This document shows positions 106 to 60,195 of a stretch of DNA of 64,000 nucleotides, in pieces (within the stretch, counting starts at the first letter, position 1; every line of letters starts with the position of its first letter). Source of the stretch: Pantoea piersonii. Lineage in GTDB: Bacteria; Pseudomonadota; Gammaproteobacteria; Enterobacterales; Enterobacteriaceae. The stretch is taken from assembly GCF_003612015.1 (NCBI RefSeq), contig NZ_RARB01000002.1, positions 435,590 to 499,589 on the forward strand. Direction: 5' to 3'. Position numbers and translations under genes: made by a program. The notes beneath the pieces are model-generated. The model saw nothing but the letters and a program-made list of their open reading frames with translations. It searched no databases and had not been told where the DNA came from.

Positions 106-738
106 TTATCGTTTCCTGCGGTAAATTCTGTGCTCGACCATGGTGCCAATGATCTGAATATGTCGTTCTGCGCTGTTCATTATCGGATAGTCATTGTTCA
201 GCGGGATTAATTCAAAATGCTGCTGACCTTCATGTCCGACGAAAGTGGGCCGGTACTTTTTGAAGGTGGCCTCATGTTCGCCATTCTTAGCAACAACAAA
301 CTCACCGGGCATCGGTTCCACTTCGGGGTCGACAATAATCACATCTCCTTCACGAAAATCAGGCTCCATAGAGTCCCCAATAATCCGCAAAGCAAAGGTG
401 TACTGCGACCAGTCCATGTCTGTCATGACGTATTCGAAGCTGCCATCAAAGGCTTCTATAGGGCTTTTATGCGCTAAAGCGCCAGCCTGGACATAGCTTA
501 CCAATGGAATCCTCCTTGTATTGACCTCGCTGACCGGGAGGATAACACCGCCATTCATAAGCCACGCTGGGTCACATCTTAATGCCTCTGCAATACCAAC
601 GATATTACGAGGCTTGAGAGTCTTACCATCTTCAATACTAGCCCAGGACTGTTGTTTAATGCCCGCTTTTTCTGCCGACTCCGTTTGGGTCAGGCCAAGC
701 TCTAACCTTCGTTTTTTAACGCGTTCTGCAAGGCTCAT
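106..738 (-). CDS. cI: Phage repressor CI, S24 (LexA-like) family
   Basis: A 210-residue transcriptional repressor that would keep the prophage silent. Residues 1 to 62 form an HTH_XRE domain (LGLTQTESAEKAGIKQQSWASIE region). Residues 75 to 205 form the LexA/CI-type S24 self-cleavage domain: the cleavage pair Ala85-Gly86 in VQAGAL, the catalytic Ser123 in GDSMEPDF and Lys160 or Lys161 in ATFKKY are all present, so RecA-stimulated cleavage in the SOS response is expected. The gene is transcribed leftward, divergent from cro, across three operators. The SD is GAGAGG before ATG. Family assignment is firm; induction behaviour is inferred. Confidence 0.95.
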   Translation of the reverse strand: MSLAERVKKRRLELGLTQTESAEKAGIKQQSWASIEDGKTLKPRNIVGIAEALRCDPAWLMNGGVILPVSEVNTRRIPLVSYVQAGALAHKSPIEAFDGSFEYVMTDMDWSQYTFALRIIGDSMEPDFREGDVIIVDPEVEPMPGEFVVAKNGEHEATFKKYRPTFVGHEGQQHFELIPLNNDYPIMNSAERHIQIIGTMVEHRIYRRKR

Positions 739-9137: not shown

Positions 9138-9241
9138 TTTTCTGCGCCCAGCCATTCAATCCAAATTAACCTTTGCCAGATATGGGTGAGGCGCATTTTC
9201 ATCGACTACTGACAGCACCGACCGTAATCACGGAGGTGAGC

Positions 9242-9490
9242 ATGAGTATTGATATGAGCAAACTTGCATCTGGCGTTGCCTACGGCGCGTCTGCCGGTAC
9301 GGTAGCCAACGGGTTGCTTACACGGCTCAGTCCTGACGAATGGAGTGCTGTTGGTGTCATAGCCGGTATTGTCGTCGCACTGCTGACGTTCGCCATTAAC
9401 GTTTATTTCAAACGTAAAGTATCTCTGGCACAGATAAAAGCGCTGGAAGAACGTGGCTACATTTCTTCCGGCAAACTGGGCGAGGAATAA
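9242..9490 (+). CDS. S: Class II holin (phage 21 S-like pinholin)
   Basis: 82 residues from ATG at 9242 behind GGAGGTG. It aligns by eye with the S protein of phage 21: SGVAYGASAG (SGIAYGTSAG in S21), then EWSAVGVIAGIVVALLTFAI and NVYFKRK (NLYFKIK). Two membrane segments are seen (about 10 to 28 and 37 to 57). Pinholins depolarise the inner membrane and thereby release a SAR endolysin, which is exactly what the next gene encodes. Confidence 0.9.
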   Translation: MSIDMSKLASGVAYGASAGTVANGLLTRLSPDEWSAVGVIAGIVVALLTFAINVYFKRKVSLAQIKALEERGYISSGKLGEE

Positions 9491-9492
9491 TC

Positions 9493-9996
9493 ATGGCTAT
9501 CTCAACGAGCCTGCGGAACAAGCTGATCGCTGCTGCAGGTGGCGGAGCCATGCTTATCGCTACGGTGTTCCTCGGCGGCAAGGATGGGGTGGAAGGGCGC
9601 GTGTACGTGCCTTACAAAGATGTGGCTGGCGTCTGGACGGTCTGTGATGGGCATACCGGTAACGACATCATCAAAGGTAAGAAATACACCGACCGCGAGT
9701 GTGATCGCTTGCTGTGGAATGACCTGCAGCCGGTAAAGAAAACCGTCGATAGTCTGGTAAAAGTGCCGCTTAATGAATATCAGCGTGCTGCGCTCTACAG
9801 CTTCACATACAACGTCGGATCTGGCGCATTCTCTAAATCAACGCTGCTTAAGAAGCTGAACGCAGGCGATCAGGATGGTGCATGTGAAGAGCTACGCCGC
9901 TGGGTCTATGCCGGTGGTATGAAGTTTCGTGGCCTGATGAATCGCCGCGACATGGAGCGTTCAATGTGCCTTGCGGATGGTCCAAATGACATTTAG
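9493..9996 (+). CDS. R: SAR endolysin, GH24 lysozyme
   Basis: 167 residues. A weakly hydrophobic N-terminal signal-arrest-release segment (about 8 to 28, Gly/Ala rich) precedes the catalytic motif E34-x8-D43-x5-T49 (EGRVYVPYKD, GVWTVCDG). It resembles phage 21 R and RrrD. The enzyme cleaves the murein glycan after membrane collapse. It follows the holin by two bases and overlaps Rz. Confidence 0.95.
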   Translation: MAISTSLRNKLIAAAGGGAMLIATVFLGGKDGVEGRVYVPYKDVAGVWTVCDGHTGNDIIKGKKYTDRECDRLLWNDLQPVKKTVDSLVKVPLNEYQRAALYSFTYNVGSGAFSKSTLLKKLNAGDQDGACEELRRWVYAGGMKFRGLMNRRDMERSMCLADGPNDI

Positions 9997-10429
9997 CTGG
10001 CGAGCATTAATTATTGGCCTGCTGCTGGTGGCGCTCATTGCGGTCTGCCGGTTAGCAATTCTTTTCCACGGCAAATACGTTACCGCTGACAGCCTGGCTA
10101 CCGAGCGCCAGCAGACGATTGACGATATGCAGGTCCGCCAGCGTGATGTTGCCGCGCTCGACGCCAAATACATAAAGGAATTAGCTGATGCTCAGGCAAC
10201 TATCGACCAGCTTGAGCGTGACGTTGCTTCTGGCAAGCGCCGGTTGCAGCTCAACGCCATCTGCACGAAGCAATCCACCTCCGGCGCCGCCAGCGTGGAT
10301 GATGCAGCCAGCCCCGGACTTACTGACTCCGCTGAACGGGATTATTTCACCCTCAGAAGTCGAATCGAGGTCGCAGGGAAGCAAATAGCCGGATTGCAGC
10401 AGTACATCAGAGAGCAATGTTTGAGGTAA
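9986..10429 (+). CDS. Rz: Rz inner-membrane spanin
   Basis: 147 residues with one N-terminal membrane anchor (about 6 to 24, ALIIGLLLVALIAVCRLAIL) and a long periplasmic helical part (TERQQTIDDMQVRQRDVAAL). ATG 9986 is chosen; ATG 9977 is also in frame. Rz joins outer-membrane Rz1 to fuse the two membranes at lysis. It overlaps the endolysin by 11 bases and contains Rz1. Confidence 0.88.
   Translation: MTFSWRALIIGLLLVALIAVCRLAILFHGKYVTADSLATERQQTIDDMQVRQRDVAALDAKYIKELADAQATIDQLERDVASGKRRLQLNAICTKQSTSGAASVDDAASPGLTDSAERDYFTLRSRIEVAGKQIAGLQQYIREQCLR
10188..10388 (+). CDS. Rz1: Rz1 outer-membrane spanin lipoprotein, nested in Rz
   Basis: 66 residues in the +1 frame wholly inside Rz, the lambda arrangement. 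Short signal with LLLASAGC (Cys20 to be lipidated), then proline-rich NPPPAPPAWMMQPAPD, the Rz1 signature. The region between stop codons is free of other frames' genes except Rz. Confidence 0.88.
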   Translation: MLRQLSTSLSVTLLLASAGCSSTPSARSNPPPAPPAWMMQPAPDLLTPLNGIISPSEVESRSQGSK

Positions 10430-38095: not shown

Positions 38096-38766
38096 TTATA
38101 AGGCCACTTTAGCGAAGCACGTATGTAGCACAAGATCGTTCATTTTCGTGTTGATGAGGGAAAGCTGATCCGTATTGTTCTCTGACATCCAGGCGCCATA
38201 AACCCGATACACCATCTGCGCATCCGAGTGACTCATTTGCGCGGCGACGTAGTTCGGGTTTGCGCCTGCCGACAATGCCCAGCATGCGAAAGTGTGCCTG
38301 GACTGATATGCCTTACGGTGGCGAAGACCTGCACGCCTTAGCGCACCGTTCCATATTTGCCCAAGCGAATCCGTCGAATAGTAAGCGCCTGACCTGCCGT
38401 TTACTGCATCAAGGCTGGCGTTGAATACGAATGTTTTCTGATCATCTATCCTTTCGCCATGCTCCCTGGTATGAAATGTGAAGAGAGTCTGAGGATACAT
38501 TCTTGTCAGCTCGCGCTGATTGCGGAGAACTTCAGCTGCTGCATCAATCAGACAAATGACCCTGTTGCCTGCCTCGGTCTTCGGTGGGGTGAACAGGCCT
38601 TGCGGCGTCAGATTGCGCGAGACGGTAATGGTCTTCGCTTCAAGGTCTATATCCTCCCAGGCCAGCGCGCAGAAGATCTGAATTAACCAGAACTTTGCGA
38701 AGCTTTGAACAACATCCTGAAAGAGGCCGCCGACGAAAACCTTGTTAATGGCTACCCTGTTACTTC
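38096..38766 (-). pseudogene. int: Tyrosine integrase, N-terminally truncated
   Basis: Only the catalytic half remains. From high to low coordinate it reads ALAWEDIDLEAKTITVSR, TPPKTEAGNRVICLI, then SYQSRHTF-like SRHTFACWALSAGANPNYVA and MVYRVYGAW with the nucleophile Tyr. The usual TGLR box and everything before it is missing or deleted: upstream text KFWLIQIFCALAW lacks the arginine of that motif, and a stop lies at about 38767. The intact reading frame after it could still give 134 residues from an internal ATG at 38500, but this cannot recombine. Confidence 0.75.
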
Positions 38767-43134: not shown

Positions 43135-43160
43135 CAAAAAAAGACCCGCTCGAGGCGGGT
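43135..43160 (-). terminator. Terminator of repressor gene
   Basis: ACCCGC CTCGA GCGGGT hairpin on the minus strand followed by CTTTTTTT; it lies about 100 bases past the repressor stop. Confidence 0.75.
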
Positions 43161-43266: not shown

Positions 43267-43893
43267 TTATTGCTGCGTGTCGCGATAGCGTCGCCATTCA
43301 ACCAGGGTTCCCAGCACAGACAGCGCCTGTTCAGACGAGCGCAACAGCGGGTAATCCTCATTGAGCGGTGCCAGTTCAAAGCTGTCCTGACTGCGCGCGC
43401 GATATTTGCGTACCACATAATCGCTGTCGCCATTTAGCGCGAGCACCAGCTCTCCGGGCTGGGGCGGTAACTCTGGATCGATAATCAGCAGATCGCCGCG
43501 CAGGCATTGCGGCGACAGCGCGTTGTCCCACAGCAGCACGGCAAAGCTGGCGGTAGAGTAGTCGCGATCTGTTTGCACACGCCTCGCAATTTCAACCTGA
43601 TTAGCCTCTGATAGCCATAGCGAAATTTGCTCCCTTTCAAGTACGGGCACGCCGGTTTGCGTCTGATTTTGTACAGTAAAAACCGGTCCATCGCCGTCAA
43701 CCAGCCATGCAGGCGCGCAGCCCAACGCCTCTGCGAGCCGCAGCAGATTTTCGCCGCGCGGCAGCGTCTCCTCTTTTTCCCACTGTGATATCGCCACATG
43801 GGAAACCGAAATTTTTTCCGCTACTGCTTTTTGCGTCAAATTCAAAGCCTTACGGCGGAAGCGGATACGTTCACCTGTTGTTTCTTTTTCCAT
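43267..43893 (-). CDS. CI-like repressor with degenerate S24 domain
   Basis: 208 residues. HTH_XRE domain about 8 to 65 (LNLTQKAVAEKISVSHVAIS). The C-terminal half has the S24 fold (DLLIIDPELPPQPGELVLAL, YVVRKYR with Lys163, ELAPLNEDYPLL), but the catalytic GDSM is WDNAL (Asn124 for Ser) and no Ala-Gly cleavage site is seen near 85. It would dimerise but not self-cleave. Not part of the prophage: it heads a chromosomal module, divergent from three genes, across two matching operators. Confidence 0.88.
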   Translation of the reverse strand: MEKETTGERIRFRRKALNLTQKAVAEKISVSHVAISQWEKEETLPRGENLLRLAEALGCAPAWLVDGDGPVFTVQNQTQTGVPVLEREQISLWLSEANQVEIARRVQTDRDYSTASFAVLLWDNALSPQCLRGDLLIIDPELPPQPGELVLALNGDSDYVVRKYRARSQDSFELAPLNEDYPLLRSSEQALSVLGTLVEWRRYRDTQQ

Positions 43894-43897
43894 CGTC

Positions 43898-43926
43898 TTG
43901 ACATCTCCTGAGAGCCAGACTTAAGT
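43898..43926 (+). promoter_or_regulatory. Promoter of the three-gene module
   Basis: TTGACA at 43898-43903, 17 bp, then TTAAGT as a weak -10 inside the first operator. Binding of the repressor should block it. Confidence 0.5.
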
Positions 43927-43958
43927 ATACTTAAGCTGTGAATTTAAGCAATCTTAAG
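43920..43958. promoter_or_regulatory. Two 16-bp repressor operators
   Basis: CTTAAGTATACTTAAG at 43920-43935 (perfect dyad) and TTTAAGCAATCTTAAG at 43943-43958, 23 bp apart start to start. Same half-site CTTAAG. They sit between the divergent repressor and module genes, so likely the repressor's operators. Confidence 0.82.
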
Positions 43959-44032
43959 TTACAGCGAGGGAGGCGCTTTGCGTTGTACGCCTGACGTCAG
44001 CAGCCGTTACCCGTCGAGCACAGAGGTGAGGC

Positions 44033-44422
44033 ATGGAAAGTAGTCTGATTACCAGTGTTGGCGCATTAGTTCTTGGGGGCGGAGCGGCCGCGCTTTTCTG
44101 GAAGCCGCTCATTGCAGGCATTGCCTCTATTGTCACCAGCAATCGTGCCGGTGGAGAAATCATTACCAGTTACAAAGAGCAGGTGCTGTTGCTAAAGGAG
44201 AGTAACGCGTTGCTCCGTCAGGAGAATGATGATTTGCGAGTACGGCACGACACGAATTTGCGGCGGATTTCCACCCTTGAGACCGATCTGCGTCTGATCA
44301 AAAACGCACTCGGCATCCTGGTGGCAATGACCGATGCCGATCAAAACAGCAAGTTCCGCAATGAAATCGACAGGCTAATTTCCACTCTGGAGGATCGTAA
44401 CGATGGCAGAGATACACAGTGA
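44033..44422 (+). CDS. Membrane-anchored coiled-coil protein, module gene 1
   Basis: 129 residues behind GAGGTGAG. A hydrophobic N-terminus (VGALVLGGGAAALFWKPLIA) is followed by a coiled coil (about 42 to 85: LLKESNALLRQENDDLRVRH, ISTLETDLRLIKNALGILV). Length and shape recall phage lysis accessory or small chemotaxis-like membrane proteins, but I find no clear family. Overlaps gene 2 by 20 bases. Confidence 0.65.
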   Translation: MESSLITSVGALVLGGGAAALFWKPLIAGIASIVTSNRAGGEIITSYKEQVLLLKESNALLRQENDDLRVRHDTNLRRISTLETDLRLIKNALGILVAMTDADQNSKFRNEIDRLISTLEDRNDGRDTQ

Positions 44423-44729
44423 AATAAGACCGGCGACTCACAAACGTAAGCTCATGCTGGGCGTGCTGATGCTGGGCATGTCGATGGTATGCATTGTGAT
44501 GACCATTCTTTTTTTATACGTCAGCAGTACTGCCAATCGGCGCGTAGAAGAGATTCGGCAGGAGTCCCGCGAATCTGCCGCCAGACGCGAAGCCAAAGTT
44601 GATCAGCTGTCGAAGCAGGTGTCCGCACTCCAGCGAAAGCTGGACGCGCTGCCCGATCGGACCGCCGCACAGACGGCCGACAAGGTTAAGCAGGTTGTTA
44701 TACAGGATGAGTCCTCTGTAAAGCCGTAA
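44403..44729 (+). CDS. Single-span membrane protein with coiled coil, module gene 2
   Basis: 108 residues. Charged start (SEIRPATHKRK), one membrane helix (about 17 to 40: LMLGVLMLGMSMVCIVMTIL), then a coiled coil (RVEEIRQESRESAARREAKV, LSKQVSALQRKLDALPDR). It shares the anchor-plus-coil plan with gene 1 and is coupled to it. Unknown function. Confidence 0.65.
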   Translation: MAEIHSEIRPATHKRKLMLGVLMLGMSMVCIVMTILFLYVSSTANRRVEEIRQESRESAARREAKVDQLSKQVSALQRKLDALPDRTAAQTADKVKQVVIQDESSVKP

Positions 44730-44741
44730 CAGGAGAGCCCT

Positions 44742-45683
44742 ATGCGAATTTTTAACCTGATTGGGGAAGGTGTTCACGCCCTCCGATCGTTTATCATCAC
44801 GAAGGAGTCTGCTATGACTGATACCAGCATCATTAACTCAACCGCTCAAAACAGTGACGCCACGCTGCCGCAGTTTGCCGTACCGGACAGCAATGTACCC
44901 ACCGATCCGCAACTGCAGCGCTTAACCTCTCCCTCAACGGTTGCGCCAGCAACTTCAGAGGAGACGCCGGGAGAAACGCATGTGGCACCTGACGCGACGG
45001 CGCAGCACACCCCTGCTCAGTCTGCGGATCAGAGCCCAACCCCGGACGCTGCCACTTCCGCGTCTTCTACGGATCAGAGCGCAACCCCGGACGCTGCCGC
45101 CTCTGCGTCTTCTACGGATCAGAGCGCAGCCCCGGACGCTGCCGCCTCGGCACAGCCTGCGGATCAGAGCGCAACCCCGGATGCTGCCGCCTCCGCGCAG
45201 CCTGCGGATCAGAGCGCAGCCCCGGCCGCTGCCGCCTCGTCGCAGCCTGCCGATCAGAGCGCAACCCCGGCCGCTGCCGCCTCGTCGCAGCCTGCCGATC
45301 AGAGCGCAACCCCGGATGCTGCCGCCTCGGCGCAGCCTGCCGATCAGAGCACGCCCTCGAACGCTGCCGCTCAGTCCGCCGATCAGCCAGCGACGGCAGA
45401 TACTTCCGCTAACGCGCAGTCCCAGGCGCAGACATCCGTGGCGGATGCCGCTGCCGGGCAGACCAGTCCGCAGGCTGACAACGCTGCTGTACAGGCGTCA
45501 GCCCCCGCAGCCGCATCCACCGCGCAGGCGTCTGCTCAGCCAGCGGCGAAAACGGAGCAAGATGACTTCAGCGCAGGCGTAAAAGATTTCAACGCCGCGT
45601 TTGATTTCGTCCAGCAGGGAATTGAGCGCCTTGGAGCGGCGGCCAGGAAAGAGCTGTTTGAACTGGCGCGTAAATATCTGTGA
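44742..45683 (+). CDS. Ala/Ser/Pro repeat protein, module gene 3
   Basis: 313 residues from ATG at 44742 (SD AGGAG). A second in-frame ATG at 44814 with AAGGAG would remove 24 N-terminal residues; both signals are good. Residues 96 to 200 are 15-residue repeats like DQSATPDAAASAQPA. The C-terminal 45 residues form a folded helical end (DDFSAGVKDFNAAFDFVQQG, IERLGAAARKELFELARKYL). No signal peptide is evident. Unknown; a long flexible linker with a C-terminal anchor or binding domain. Confidence 0.65.
   Translation: MRIFNLIGEGVHALRSFIITKESAMTDTSIINSTAQNSDATLPQFAVPDSNVPTDPQLQRLTSPSTVAPATSEETPGETHVAPDATAQHTPAQSADQSPTPDAATSASSTDQSATPDAAASASSTDQSAAPDAAASAQPADQSATPDAAASAQPADQSAAPAAAASSQPADQSATPAAAASSQPADQSATPDAAASAQPADQSTPSNAAAQSADQPATADTSANAQSQAQTSVADAAAGQTSPQADNAAVQASAPAAASTAQASAQPAAKTEQDDFSAGVKDFNAAFDFVQQGIERLGAAARKELFELARKYL
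45027..45341 (+). repeat. 45-bp tandem repeat, seven units
   Basis: Seven in-frame units start with GATCAGAGC and encode DQS.. 15-mers; two degenerate units follow to about 45430. Units 3 to 7 are nearly identical, so copy number may vary between strains. Confidence 0.85.
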
Positions 45684-45707
45684 TAACTGAGCGTGCGTAA
45701 TATCAAA

Positions 45708-45734
45708 AGGGGACAGCGGGTCCCCTGTTTTTTT
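45708..45734 (+). terminator. Terminator of the module
   Basis: AGGGGAC AGCGG GTCCCCT perfect 7-bp stem, then GTTTTTTTT. Confidence 0.9.
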
Positions 45735-46086
45735 GCAAAAAATAGCGGCGCTTTTGGTCGCCCCGACGGTCTTGCAAAAGTTAAAGCGCATGAAAAGATT
45801 CTGTTCCGTTGCTGGCTGGCGGCGGGGAGGGTGCAGGCGTGACAAATTACATAAGATGCCCGTTCTGATAGCGGGCTGCGCCTTTCCTTGGGGTTCCCCT
45901 TAACAACGGCCATGCATAGCCCTTAACAGGGGCAAAAAGGAGTGAGCGAGCGCACCGTGGTTCTCTGGCTGCGGGTATCCTCAGGGGCAACTTGCGAACA
46001 TTCTTAAAGCGGTTTCGTTATAATCCACTACCTTTAATCATTCACGCGAGATAATTATTGGTTAAAACGGCAGAAGGAAAAACAGC
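45735..46086. other. Intergenic region
   Basis: 350 bases without a gene. TATAAT at 46019 lies in a promoter-like stretch before the next gene; no clear -35. SD AGAAGGAAA precedes 46087. Confidence 0.4.
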
Positions 46087-46353
46087 ATGAGTGATTCAGT
46101 GGAAACGAAAAGCAAAACTGACTACCTGCGCGATGTAACCTCGCAGCTGAAAGAGATGCGCCACTATGCGCAAACCAATACCGAAACGCTCTCCAGCCAC
46201 TGGCTCGCATTTGATGCTGGCGAATATAAAGATAAAGAGTTTGCCGGACGCATTGATGCGCTGCTGAACAAACAGGGCACGCTGCTGGATGACTTAGACG
46301 CCGCAATCCAGGACATGGAGATTGCGGTTAACCACAGCGAGCAGGAGAAGTAA
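46087..46353 (+). CDS. Small helical protein, unknown
   Basis: 88 residues: TDYLRDVTSQLKEMRHYAQT, SHWLAFDAGEYKDKEFAGRI, LLDDLDAAIQDMEIAVNHSE. Soluble, helical. Single gene. Unknown. Confidence 0.6.
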   Translation: MSDSVETKSKTDYLRDVTSQLKEMRHYAQTNTETLSSHWLAFDAGEYKDKEFAGRIDALLNKQGTLLDDLDAAIQDMEIAVNHSEQEK

Positions 46354-46621: not shown

Positions 46622-46637
46622 CTGGTATTCCATACAG
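46622..46637. promoter_or_regulatory. LexA box of the DinI-like gene
   Basis: CTGGTATTCCATACAG: CTG-N10-CAG with an AT-rich core. It lies one base upstream of the ATG, unusually close; the gene would be SOS-induced. Confidence 0.65.
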
Positions 46638-46793
46638 GGAAGAAATTCGCTGGCACATCATACTGTAAATCCAACCAGTGACAAGCGTCTCAGGCGCGTC
46701 AGAAGGTTTTTTTTTGGCGTCATACGCAAATTTGTGGCAGGCGGTGATCAAAACAGGGCGAGGAAGAAATTGCAGCAGGATAAAAAAATTAAA

Positions 46794-58867: not shown

Positions 58868-59616
58868 GCGCCATTGAGATCACCGGACTGGTGAAAACCT
58901 TCAACGGCCAGACAGTGCTGCACGGCATCGACCTGGAGGTCGCCTCGGGCGAAGTGGTGGCGATTATCGGTCCCAGCGGGTCAGGGAAAACGACGCTGCT
59001 GCGCTGTATCAACCTGCTGGAGACGCCAGACAGCGGCACCATCAAAGTCGGGGAGATCGCTATCGACGCCAGGCTGGCGCAGACGAAGCAGAAAGAGCAG
59101 GTGCGTCAGCTGCGCCAGCAGGTCGGCTTTGTTTTCCAGAACTTCAATCTGTTTCCTCACCGCTCGGTGCTGGAAAACATTATTGAAGGGCCGGTCATCG
59201 TTAAAGGCGAACCCAAAGGGGAAGCTGAGGCGCGCGCCCGCGCGCTGCTGGAGAAAGTCGGATTGCAGGGCAGGGAGAGCAGTTTCCCGCGTCGGCTTTC
59301 TGGCGGCCAGCAGCAGCGCGTCGCCATCGCCCGTGCGCTGGCGATGCGTCCGCAGGTGATCCTGTTTGACGAGCCGACCTCGGCGCTCGATCCCGAGCTG
59401 GTGGGTGAGGTGCTCAACACCATCCGCGCGCTGGCGCAGGAGAAACGCACCATGGTCATCGTCACCCATGAGATGAGCTTTGCCCGCGACGTGGCGGATC
59501 GGGCGATCTTTATGGATCAGGGCCGCATCGTTGAGCAAGGCCCGGCGAAAGCGTTGTTCAGCAACCCGCAGCAGGCGCGTACTCGCCAGTTCCTTGATAA
59601 ATTTCTTAATCAGTAA
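58864..59616 (+). CDS. tcyN: Cystine ABC ATPase TcyN
   Basis: 250 residues. Walker A GPSGSGKTT (36-44), Q-loop VFQNFNLFPH, signature LSGGQQQRVAIARAL, Walker B VILFDEPTSALD, H-loop VTHEMSF. Drives TcyJLN uptake. Last gene of the operon; a hairpin follows. Confidence 0.97.
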   Translation: MSAIEITGLVKTFNGQTVLHGIDLEVASGEVVAIIGPSGSGKTTLLRCINLLETPDSGTIKVGEIAIDARLAQTKQKEQVRQLRQQVGFVFQNFNLFPHRSVLENIIEGPVIVKGEPKGEAEARARALLEKVGLQGRESSFPRRLSGGQQQRVAIARALAMRPQVILFDEPTSALDPELVGEVLNTIRALAQEKRTMVIVTHEMSFARDVADRAIFMDQGRIVEQGPAKALFSNPQQARTRQFLDKFLNQ

Positions 59617-59619
59617 TGG

Positions 59620-59641
59620 ATACGCCTCTGCGGAGGCGTAT
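59620..59641 (+). terminator. Hairpin after tcyN
   Basis: ATACGCCTC TGCG GAGGCGTAT, perfect 9-bp stem, no T-run; begins four bases after the stop. Confidence 0.65.
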
Positions 59642-59652
59642 ATCTGCTGTGC

Positions 59653-59742
59653 CTGACCATCCTGACCATCCTGACCATCCTGACCATCCTGACCATCCTG
59701 ACCATCCTGACCATCCTGACCATCCTGACCATCCTGACCATC
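59653..59742. repeat. 9-bp tandem repeat, ten copies
   Basis: Ten exact copies of CTGACCATC without interruption, in an intergenic region 36 bases past tcyN. Copy number is likely to vary by slippage. Confidence 0.95.
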
Positions 59743-60195
59743 CTGGCTCAGCGGTCACGCGTGCCGCGTTGTAACAGGTGCGGAAGGCAAAGATAAGTGC
59801 CTGGCCGCTATTATTCCCGCGCGTTAACACAATTATTTATTCACGCTTAAACAATCTGGTGCAAAGTCTTTAATTATTGCAGCTTTGAATATATCAATAT
59901 CTGGCTTTTCTGCATTAGGGTTACTCCTATTTACCCCGGCAAATAACGAGCATTATAATTCCCACTCTGCCTGTTTAGTCATTAACAGCTAACTAAAAAA
60001 TAGCGTGCATCCTGAAAGTAAAGAAAAAGCGAAACGCGTAAAGGATTGTTAATTCAGGGCCAGCGCAATATTTTTAAGAGTTTCGCTAGAGTCAGTAGCA
60101 AGGGAATAGCGAATAATCGCCAGATAATCCTAAAAGTGTCATTCCCTTTTTTCTTTCCGCTTTAAATTTCTGACCTACACAGCAGGAGTCAAATC
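59743..60195. other. Intergenic region before acyltransferase
   Basis: About 450 bases, AT-rich in the middle, no convincing gene. Near 60000-60100 it has A-rich runs. SD GCAGGAGTC at 60182. No certain promoter seen. Confidence 0.4.

Follow-up and report, generated by a model that had tools for sequence, protein, structure and literature searches.

Among phage relics held under a repressor lock, the best known are Qin and Rac of Escherichia coli. The dicA-dicC/dicBF region of the Qin cryptic prophage (PMC10448788) combines a C2/CI-like repressor that RecA cannot cleave, lambdoid operators, and an operon that includes the lysis protein YdfD along with genes affecting the host; DicA is given there as a 135-aa protein without an Ala-Gly site and with a Cro-like partner, DicC. 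The Gifsy repressors and E. coli DicA are both described as short proteins without a cleavage site that are opened by antirepressors (PMC3121763, PMC10448788), which in the case of Gifsy GfoR/GtgR also act in trans from other prophages (PMC3121763). Here, we describe a locus of this general kind in Pantoea piersonii, located at positions 43267-45683 of a 64,000-nt stretch of contig NZ_RARB01000002.1 (hereafter “the window”, whose positions serve as coordinates). At this locus, a repressor gene on the minus strand (R) faces three plus-strand genes (A, B, and C) across two operators, with a terminator-like hairpin after C.

By analogy, the logic of this module appears closest to that of dicA-dicBF, since in both cases a C2/CI-like repressor not cleavable via RecA faces a relic operon through lambdoid operators. 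Unlike dicA-dicBF as presented there, however, R keeps an S24 domain minus its active residues, no cro is seen, and the A-B-C cargo comes from a late lysis region. R is also akin to Gifsy GfoR/GtgR in being non-cleavable by sequence, and the antirepressor route offers a model for how such a lock would be opened, although the Gifsy repressors are short and prophage-borne. Hence, the kind of system is known from dicA-dicBF, while this gene composition and an S24 repressor without protease residues appear to be new. No paper describing the module was found in the open-licence literature, judged by titles and the beginnings of abstracts, and a first-pass annotation of this DNA, which knew no named system with this layout, was right in that no named counterpart turned up in the searches made. 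Taken as a whole, we consider it reasonably probable that the locus is a domesticated remnant of a PA-1-like prophage, kept as a repressor-locked lysis-region module, with the following features:

43144..43160, minus strand: terminator-like hairpin after R (consensus scan)
43267..43893, minus strand: R, P22-C2/CI-type repressor of 208 aa with helix-turn-helix (HTH) and S24 domains
43920..43935, no strand: operator 1, CTTAAGTATACTTAAG, a perfect palindrome (14-mer pattern scan)
43943..43958, no strand: operator 2, TTTAAGCAATCTTAAG (14-mer pattern scan)
44022..44032, plus strand: ribosome-binding region of A, AGAGGTGAGGC, with identical letters in the prophage leader L053
44033..44422, plus strand: A, predicted N-terminally membrane-anchored coiled-coil-like protein; in prophages, the first of two genes before the endolysin gene
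44403..44729, plus strand: B, hydrophobic helix near the N-terminus, rest coiled-coil-like; its first 20 bp lie within A
44742..45683, plus strand: C, with an expanded Ala/Ser/Pro repeat between a short N-terminal segment and a conserved C-terminus of about 39 residues
45708..45726, plus strand: terminator-like hairpin after C (consensus scan)

The four genes, the two 16-bp operators, and the closing hairpin are all present where the first-pass annotation had placed them, with a B-C spacing of 12 bp. The scan for terminator-like hairpins returned 5 in the window against a shuffle mean of 3.6, a number that is not significant in itself, and an Rfam search of positions 43850-45900 at E≤1 gave no match.

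Operators and descent of the switch

The best phage matches of R were the CI proteins of Pantoea phage PA-1 and of Erwinia phage vB_EhrS_59 (EhrS_59), with PA-1 CI being 55.9% identical to the R of [Erwinia] mediterraneensis and 42.3% identical to the window R. The cI-cro gap of both phages includes three operators following a TTAAG-N4-CTTAA plan, along with a promoter-like element before cro (TTGACT-16-GATAAT in PA-1 and TTGACT-17-GATAAT in EhrS_59). A scan of the window for the 14-mer TTAAGN4CTTAA gave exact matches at the two operators and nowhere else. All 59 distinct leaders of less than 800 bp include at least two operator-like sites (≤2 mismatches), the first operator of the A leader being TTAAGTATACTTAA in 51 of the 59. 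Leaders L061, L062, and L112 (L061 and L112 being termed Duffyella-type after the database name of the same A protein), L086 (from the metagenome-assembled genome UBA2655), and L089 (from [Erwinia] mediterraneensis) display three operators, at the phage positions to within one base, and hold a TTGACT-17-AATAAT element after which the next gene is A, not cro. Operator 1 of the window corresponds in position to the middle operator of these three-operator host loci, of PA-1, and of EhrS_59, while the remaining host leaders have two operators left. The two phages thus share with host loci a CI relative of R, the three operators, and the promoter-like element, as well as, for PA-1, a small gene after the spanin gene (C', see below), and differ from them in that their CI keeps the self-cleavage residues and cro follows the promoter; where prophages have A-B, PA-1 has an 82-aa open reading frame. 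The PA-1 record annotates CI as two genes flanking an in-frame stop.

Phylogenies of both R and A separated host from phage sequences. Host R formed one side of a 100/99 branch opposite nine phage-type CIs (the best matches plus the CI of the window's prophage), and host A formed one side of a 100/96 branch opposite prophage A, with L111 counted as prophage. A single capture event is the simplest reading of these two trees. These comparisons trace R, along with its operators, back to the immunity region of PA-1-like lambdoid phages, and we infer that the former phage early promoter now drives A-B. An origin from a lambdoid phage followed by domestication is, in our view, very probable. R was also considered as the controller of a wider regulon, yet the operator pattern was found at only 7 places in the 4.85 Mb genome, two of them at the locus, compared to 3 for a reversed control pattern, i.e. 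no clear regulon.

The repressor and its cleavage residues

R matches PF01381 (HTH_3) and PF00717 (Peptidase_S24), both above cut-off, and the closest solved structure to its HTH is P22 C2. We examined the self-cleavage residues across 64 distinct host R sequences, derived from 88 loci among which some represent the same genome from two collections. The position of the catalytic Ser is occupied by Ala in 55 sequences, including the window R (A125), and by Ser in 9; an ungapped HMMER match to UmuD instead places an Asn, also non-Ser, at this position of the window R. None of the 64 has a Lys at the catalytic Lys position (Arg in 59, Ala in 3, Gly in 1, Leu in 1; R162 in the window), and the UmuD alignment sets the Arg of R against the first Lys of TVKKL, which we take to be the catalytic one. 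The aligned Ala-Gly cleavage site is likewise found in 0/64 sequences, the window R having I90-S91 there. As read from the sequences, Ser, Lys, and Ala-Gly are all kept in 9/9 phage-type CIs, namely the CI of the window's prophage and eight phage CIs.

Accordingly, we rejected R as a self-cleaving CI/LexA-type S24 repressor, for which the domains fit but all three features are missing in the window R, and also as a short non-cleavable repressor of the DicA/Gfo type, given its 208 aa and S24 domain match (the DicA model scored 82.9 bits for a cut-off of 101). Direct SOS control was rejected as well, based on the lost self-cleavage residues and on the absence of any CTGT-N8-ACAG site (≤1 mismatch) within the R-A gap. 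R still looks like a repressor by sequence, although not like one opened by RecA, and because it has lost the self-cleavage residues DNA damage would not open it directly. We hold with high confidence that the module has no direct SOS trigger, which contradicts the earlier suggestion of firing by DNA damage, at least via RecA-stimulated self-cleavage. Two one-mismatch CTGT-N8-ACAG sites are located near the start of a DinI-like gene downstream (46622-46637 and 46663-46678), when about 20 such sites per window are expected by chance.

The DNA-binding part of R is the best conserved, with a mean majority fraction of 0.84 in the HTH compared to 0.52 in the linker and 0.61 in the C-terminal domain. 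The recognition-helix motif VSHVA[IV]SQWE was found in 12/12 R variants examined, covering 63 of the 64 distinct sequences, and the open frame of R spanned >80% of the match in 88/88 loci (some genomes being represented in more than one collection). The “tightly silenced” design proposed in the first-pass annotation was right in the following respects: the unit looks tightly repressed, R-A-B forms a conserved block outside the prophage, and repression by R is highly likely. An alternative explanation is that the locus is kept for R itself, as a non-inducible repressor conferring permanent immunity to same-operator phages, with A-B-C as mere passengers. Within the VSxVAISQWE stretch of the recognition helix, which is kept in the host set, host R is one residue apart from PA-1 CI, and the PA-1 and EhrS_59 operators follow the same plan as those of the host, as this explanation would predict. 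Passengers would however be expected to decay first, whereas A is the most constrained gene of the module (median ratio of non-synonymous to synonymous substitution rates, dN/dS, of 0.045 vs 0.118 for R), and we regard this scenario as improbable.

Lysis-region relatives of A, B, and C

Matches to A in IMG/VR viral contigs numbered 38, including 23 host loci, from proviruses cut wide or adjoining, and 15 prophage cassettes, one of them (L069) with a broken A. An endolysin-like gene follows B in 15 of these 15 prophage-type loci, either of the GH108 type or of a lysozyme-like type named endolysin by PHROGs, which falls below the Pfam lysozyme cut-off in the one case tested. In prophage locus L052, A and B are preceded by a Q-like antiterminator and followed, in this order, by endolysin, holin, spanin, and C', with Q, endolysin, holin, and spanin named as such by PHROGs. 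The window's own genome encodes a second A-B within a prophage lysis cassette on another contig, and the context of L111 is A-B-GH108-holin-spanin, i.e. a prophage copy. No match to A or B was obtained at E≤0.01 among 50,697 records of isolated phages, hence their phage relatives all come from IMG/VR proviruses and bacterial genomes. Two side observations concern these regions: the “class II holin” of the PA-1 record resembles by eye the Q-like protein of L052 (L123:3112-3726 and L124:1501-2151 cover this protein and the split CI of that phage), and a SIB_RNA (Rfam RF00113, 116.1 bits) was detected upstream of A in a prophage contig (L068:4550-4697).

C includes 7.8 copies of a 45-bp unit, and its C-terminus matches the last ~39 residues of C', an 87-aa gene placed after the spanin gene in L052 and after an Rz-like gene in the isolated phage PA-1. 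This points to C being a relative, enlarged by repeats, of the small phage gene that follows the spanin gene. C has a possible second start at 44814: in C and some phage relatives, a short N-terminal segment leads to another in-frame Met (ES-x-M-[ST]-D or similar; window 44742-44830, behind a Shine-Dalgarno-like GAAGGAG; P0206; L112:201-1127; L065:5711-6262), and two forms of the protein may exist. Since prophage cassettes and PA-1 place these genes beside endolysin or spanin genes, we identify A, B, and C, from their sequence relatives, as lysis-region genes of lambdoid prophages. The first-pass annotation had named plain homologues in a described prophage lysis module among the findings that would refute its reading; plain prophage lysis-region homologues exist for A, B, and C, and none that we found is described.

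The two proteins initially proposed as a pair of membrane anchors with coiled coils proved uneven in this respect, with best 19-residue hydrophobicity means of 2.49 for B and 1.80 for A. B displays a single, strongly hydrophobic stretch flanked by positive charge on its N-terminal side, suggesting an N-in orientation with a periplasmic coiled coil. The anchor of A is less sure: its hydrophobic N-terminal stretch is weaker and its N-terminus negative, which suggests an N-out orientation with a cytoplasmic coiled coil. An AlphaFold2 model of A (49 sequences) included four helices at low confidence (mean predicted local distance difference test score, 63.7). A resembles the Mu gp25 releasin (DUF2730; PMC9239132) by its position beside an endolysin, and may do so by its putative N-terminal anchor, for which the charge pattern would fit an N-out C-in topology while the hydrophobicity is moderate. 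However, endolysins beside A-B lack a signal-arrest-release segment in our own reading, L052 has a separate holin, and A lacks PF10805. This family was found neither among the families of 17 A relatives (E≤5) nor at A in G000 (E≤1), so that A as a DUF2730 releasin was not supported and the DUF2730 label carried by A in two database names was not borne out. Given that L052 also has a holin, A-B may tune the holin or endolysin in the phage.

Lysis cassettes of type 10 secretion systems (T10SS) contain holin, endolysin, and spanin genes. The host locus is similar to these cassettes, e.g. that of Yersinia entomophaga (PMC10847048), in that phage lysis genes are in host use. In contrast to T10SS cassettes, however, all 33 named host loci were without a match to either endolysin type or to the L052 holin, up to 6 kb on each side (spanins were not searched there), and the locus is thus incomplete as a lysis cassette. 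This bears on another possible function, namely a regulated toxin or cell-death module in which, upon loss of R, A and B would depolarise or block the cell, acting in abortive infection or aiding lysis at the population level through the endolysins of resident prophages. The lysis-region origin of A and B behind a conserved repressor and operators would suit such a role, and A resembles SLATT membrane effectors, although at 17.8 bits for a cut-off of 41. We rejected A as a SLATT effector on this basis, other effectors being likewise below cut-off, and also rejected a named anti-phage defence system: in PADLOC, neither A nor C had a match, B reached only 17.1 bits with LmuB and 11.6 bits with PDC-S06, over a short coiled-coil-like stretch, and R matched RmrA, capH, and others over the HTH. 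Together with the lack of matches to endolysin and holin at host loci, this makes a toxin module unlikely.

Conservation, constraint, and possible function

Across a genus-level sample of 60 Pantoea genomes, A was present in 48, each time with R at 132-251 bp (match to match), and host-locus A was 71-96% identical to the window A. In a family-level sample of 246 genomes from 154 genera, A was detected in 4 genomes (3 genera), namely two Pantoea, host locus L112, and prophage copy L111. A pattern-based and non-exhaustive scan of named genomes yielded 37 loci, 4 in prophages and 33 host loci, mostly from Pantoea but also from Mixta mediterraneensis, [Erwinia] mediterraneensis, UBA2655, and deposits named Enterobacter or Erwinia. 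R, A, and B are thus found together outside the window's genome, while the four-gene association envisioned in the first-pass annotation held only in part for C, matched in 19 of the 33 named host loci. Overall, the R-A-B block is a conserved chromosomal locus in most sampled Pantoea and some relatives.

The earlier statement that no phage structural genes are near was also borne out, since the window's prophage ends near 38.5 kb based on open frames. This prophage (1-38500) has its own CI (106-738, minus strand) with cleavage residues kept, and reading of the frames only indicates holin-lysozyme-Rz-like genes at 9182-10429 and, at 38096-38500, a fragment resembling an integrase gene. Many IMG/VR proviruses (L032-L050) end a few kb from R-A-B, either because prophages are often adjacent or because boundaries were cut wide. 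At the 33 named host loci, the neighbouring genes include DinI (33 loci) and Y (46087-46353 in the window; 31 loci); ZinT, DinI, and DUF6388 are Pfam matches, and other neighbours are presumably YedD and AmyA. Y was ruled out as part of the module, given that of the 12 genus genomes lacking A, 9 retain it; the 3 lacking both are small (genomes or assemblies of 1.4-2.4 Mb), and one of these is 74% complete. Elsewhere in the window, a minus-strand open frame (59606-59830) consists of WSG repeats, i.e. simple sequence.

Selection was estimated with the Nei-Gojobori method (own script) on the 38 sequence pairs for which all five genes were usable, a set that leaves out L111, which has no R, Y, or DinI. 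Median dN/dS was 0.045 in A, 0.105 in B, and 0.118 in R, compared to 0.026 and 0.025 in the neighbours Y and DinI, respectively, and the C-terminus of C reached 0.199 (56 pairs with usable dS). A is therefore under strong purifying selection. Such low values are not expected of slowly decaying prophage debris without present function, an explanation otherwise in line with the 12/60 genus genomes missing A and with the many loci in which C is absent or bloated by repeats. Beyond the constraint on A, which largely refutes it, debris is also difficult to reconcile with the intact R frames, the operator-like sites in every distinct leader below 800 bp, and the identity of host-locus A across the genus, and we consider it very improbable. 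This relic is kept intact, and so probably does something useful to the bacteria.

In one Pantoea clade, including P. dispersa, P. rodasii, P. eucrina, and relatives, an H-type pseudoknot is possible directly before the ribosome-binding site of A (leaders L025, L030, L031, L090-L097, and L099-L106; example L101:5918-6003). Pairing was observed in 90.6% of 340 cells, with changes on both sides in five pairs. Shuffle controls attained this pairing in 0/500 cases, the covariation score in 0/500, the five two-sided pairs in 16/500, and the number of pair types in 396/500; partners slid by -3 gave six two-sided pairs, yet with only 49.6% of cells paired. RNAalifold, which draws no pseudoknots, found the second helix and not the first. 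Single-base shuffles matched the leader pseudoknot in 0/100 cases for 6/6 clade leaders vs 7-99/100 for 13 leaders from other clades, including the window, in whose own leader a pseudoknot was rejected (best H-type equalled by 51/100 shuffles). This suggests a second, translational layer of control of A in that clade.

Taken together, these observations suggest how a domesticated module could operate. By sequence, a phage immunity repressor and its operators stand directly before A, B, and, in many loci, C. R bound to the two operators would silence its own promoter as well as that of A-B-C. The lock would open only if another factor removes or titrates R, for instance Cro or an antirepressor supplied by a related phage, or if R is lowered by a stress. 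A and B would then put a cytoplasmic and a periplasmic coiled coil, respectively, at the inner membrane, and act as they may do in the phage just before endolysin release, minus the endolysin. The likely output would be an interference with the membrane or with lysis timing, most plausibly upon infection by, or induction of, related phages. We see the chances of such a membrane or lysis-timing output as about even, and a phage-linked trigger as less likely than not. A more specific version, in which the Cro, antirepressor, or numerous operator copies of an incoming or induced same-operator phage draw off R, and host-encoded A and B, at the membrane ahead of the late genes of the phage, spoil lysis timing or kill the cell before progeny are completed, seems unlikely.

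Several observations weigh against the domesticated lysis-region module. A sigma-70 scan of the window gave no promoter for A, which there may be weak or altered. R is under weaker constraint than A, the catalytic Ser is retained in 9/64 R, 22/64 hold an Ala-Gly elsewhere in residues 72-112, off the aligned site, and one TAG was found in 2 R matches of the genus sample. A is dispensable, being missing in 12/60 genus genomes, and C is without match in 14/33 named host loci. Finally, no clue to the role of A and B in the phages comes from searches with A, whose matches in Pfam, PHROGs, and NCBIfam are weak or fall below cut-off and which matches nothing in PADLOC, and L052 has a separate holin.

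Overall, most sampled Pantoea keep a phage relic cut down to a repressor, operators, and two or three lysis-region genes. This locus thus represents a natural test of why bacteria retain pieces of phages, and provides a handle on two uncharacterised lysis-region proteins.

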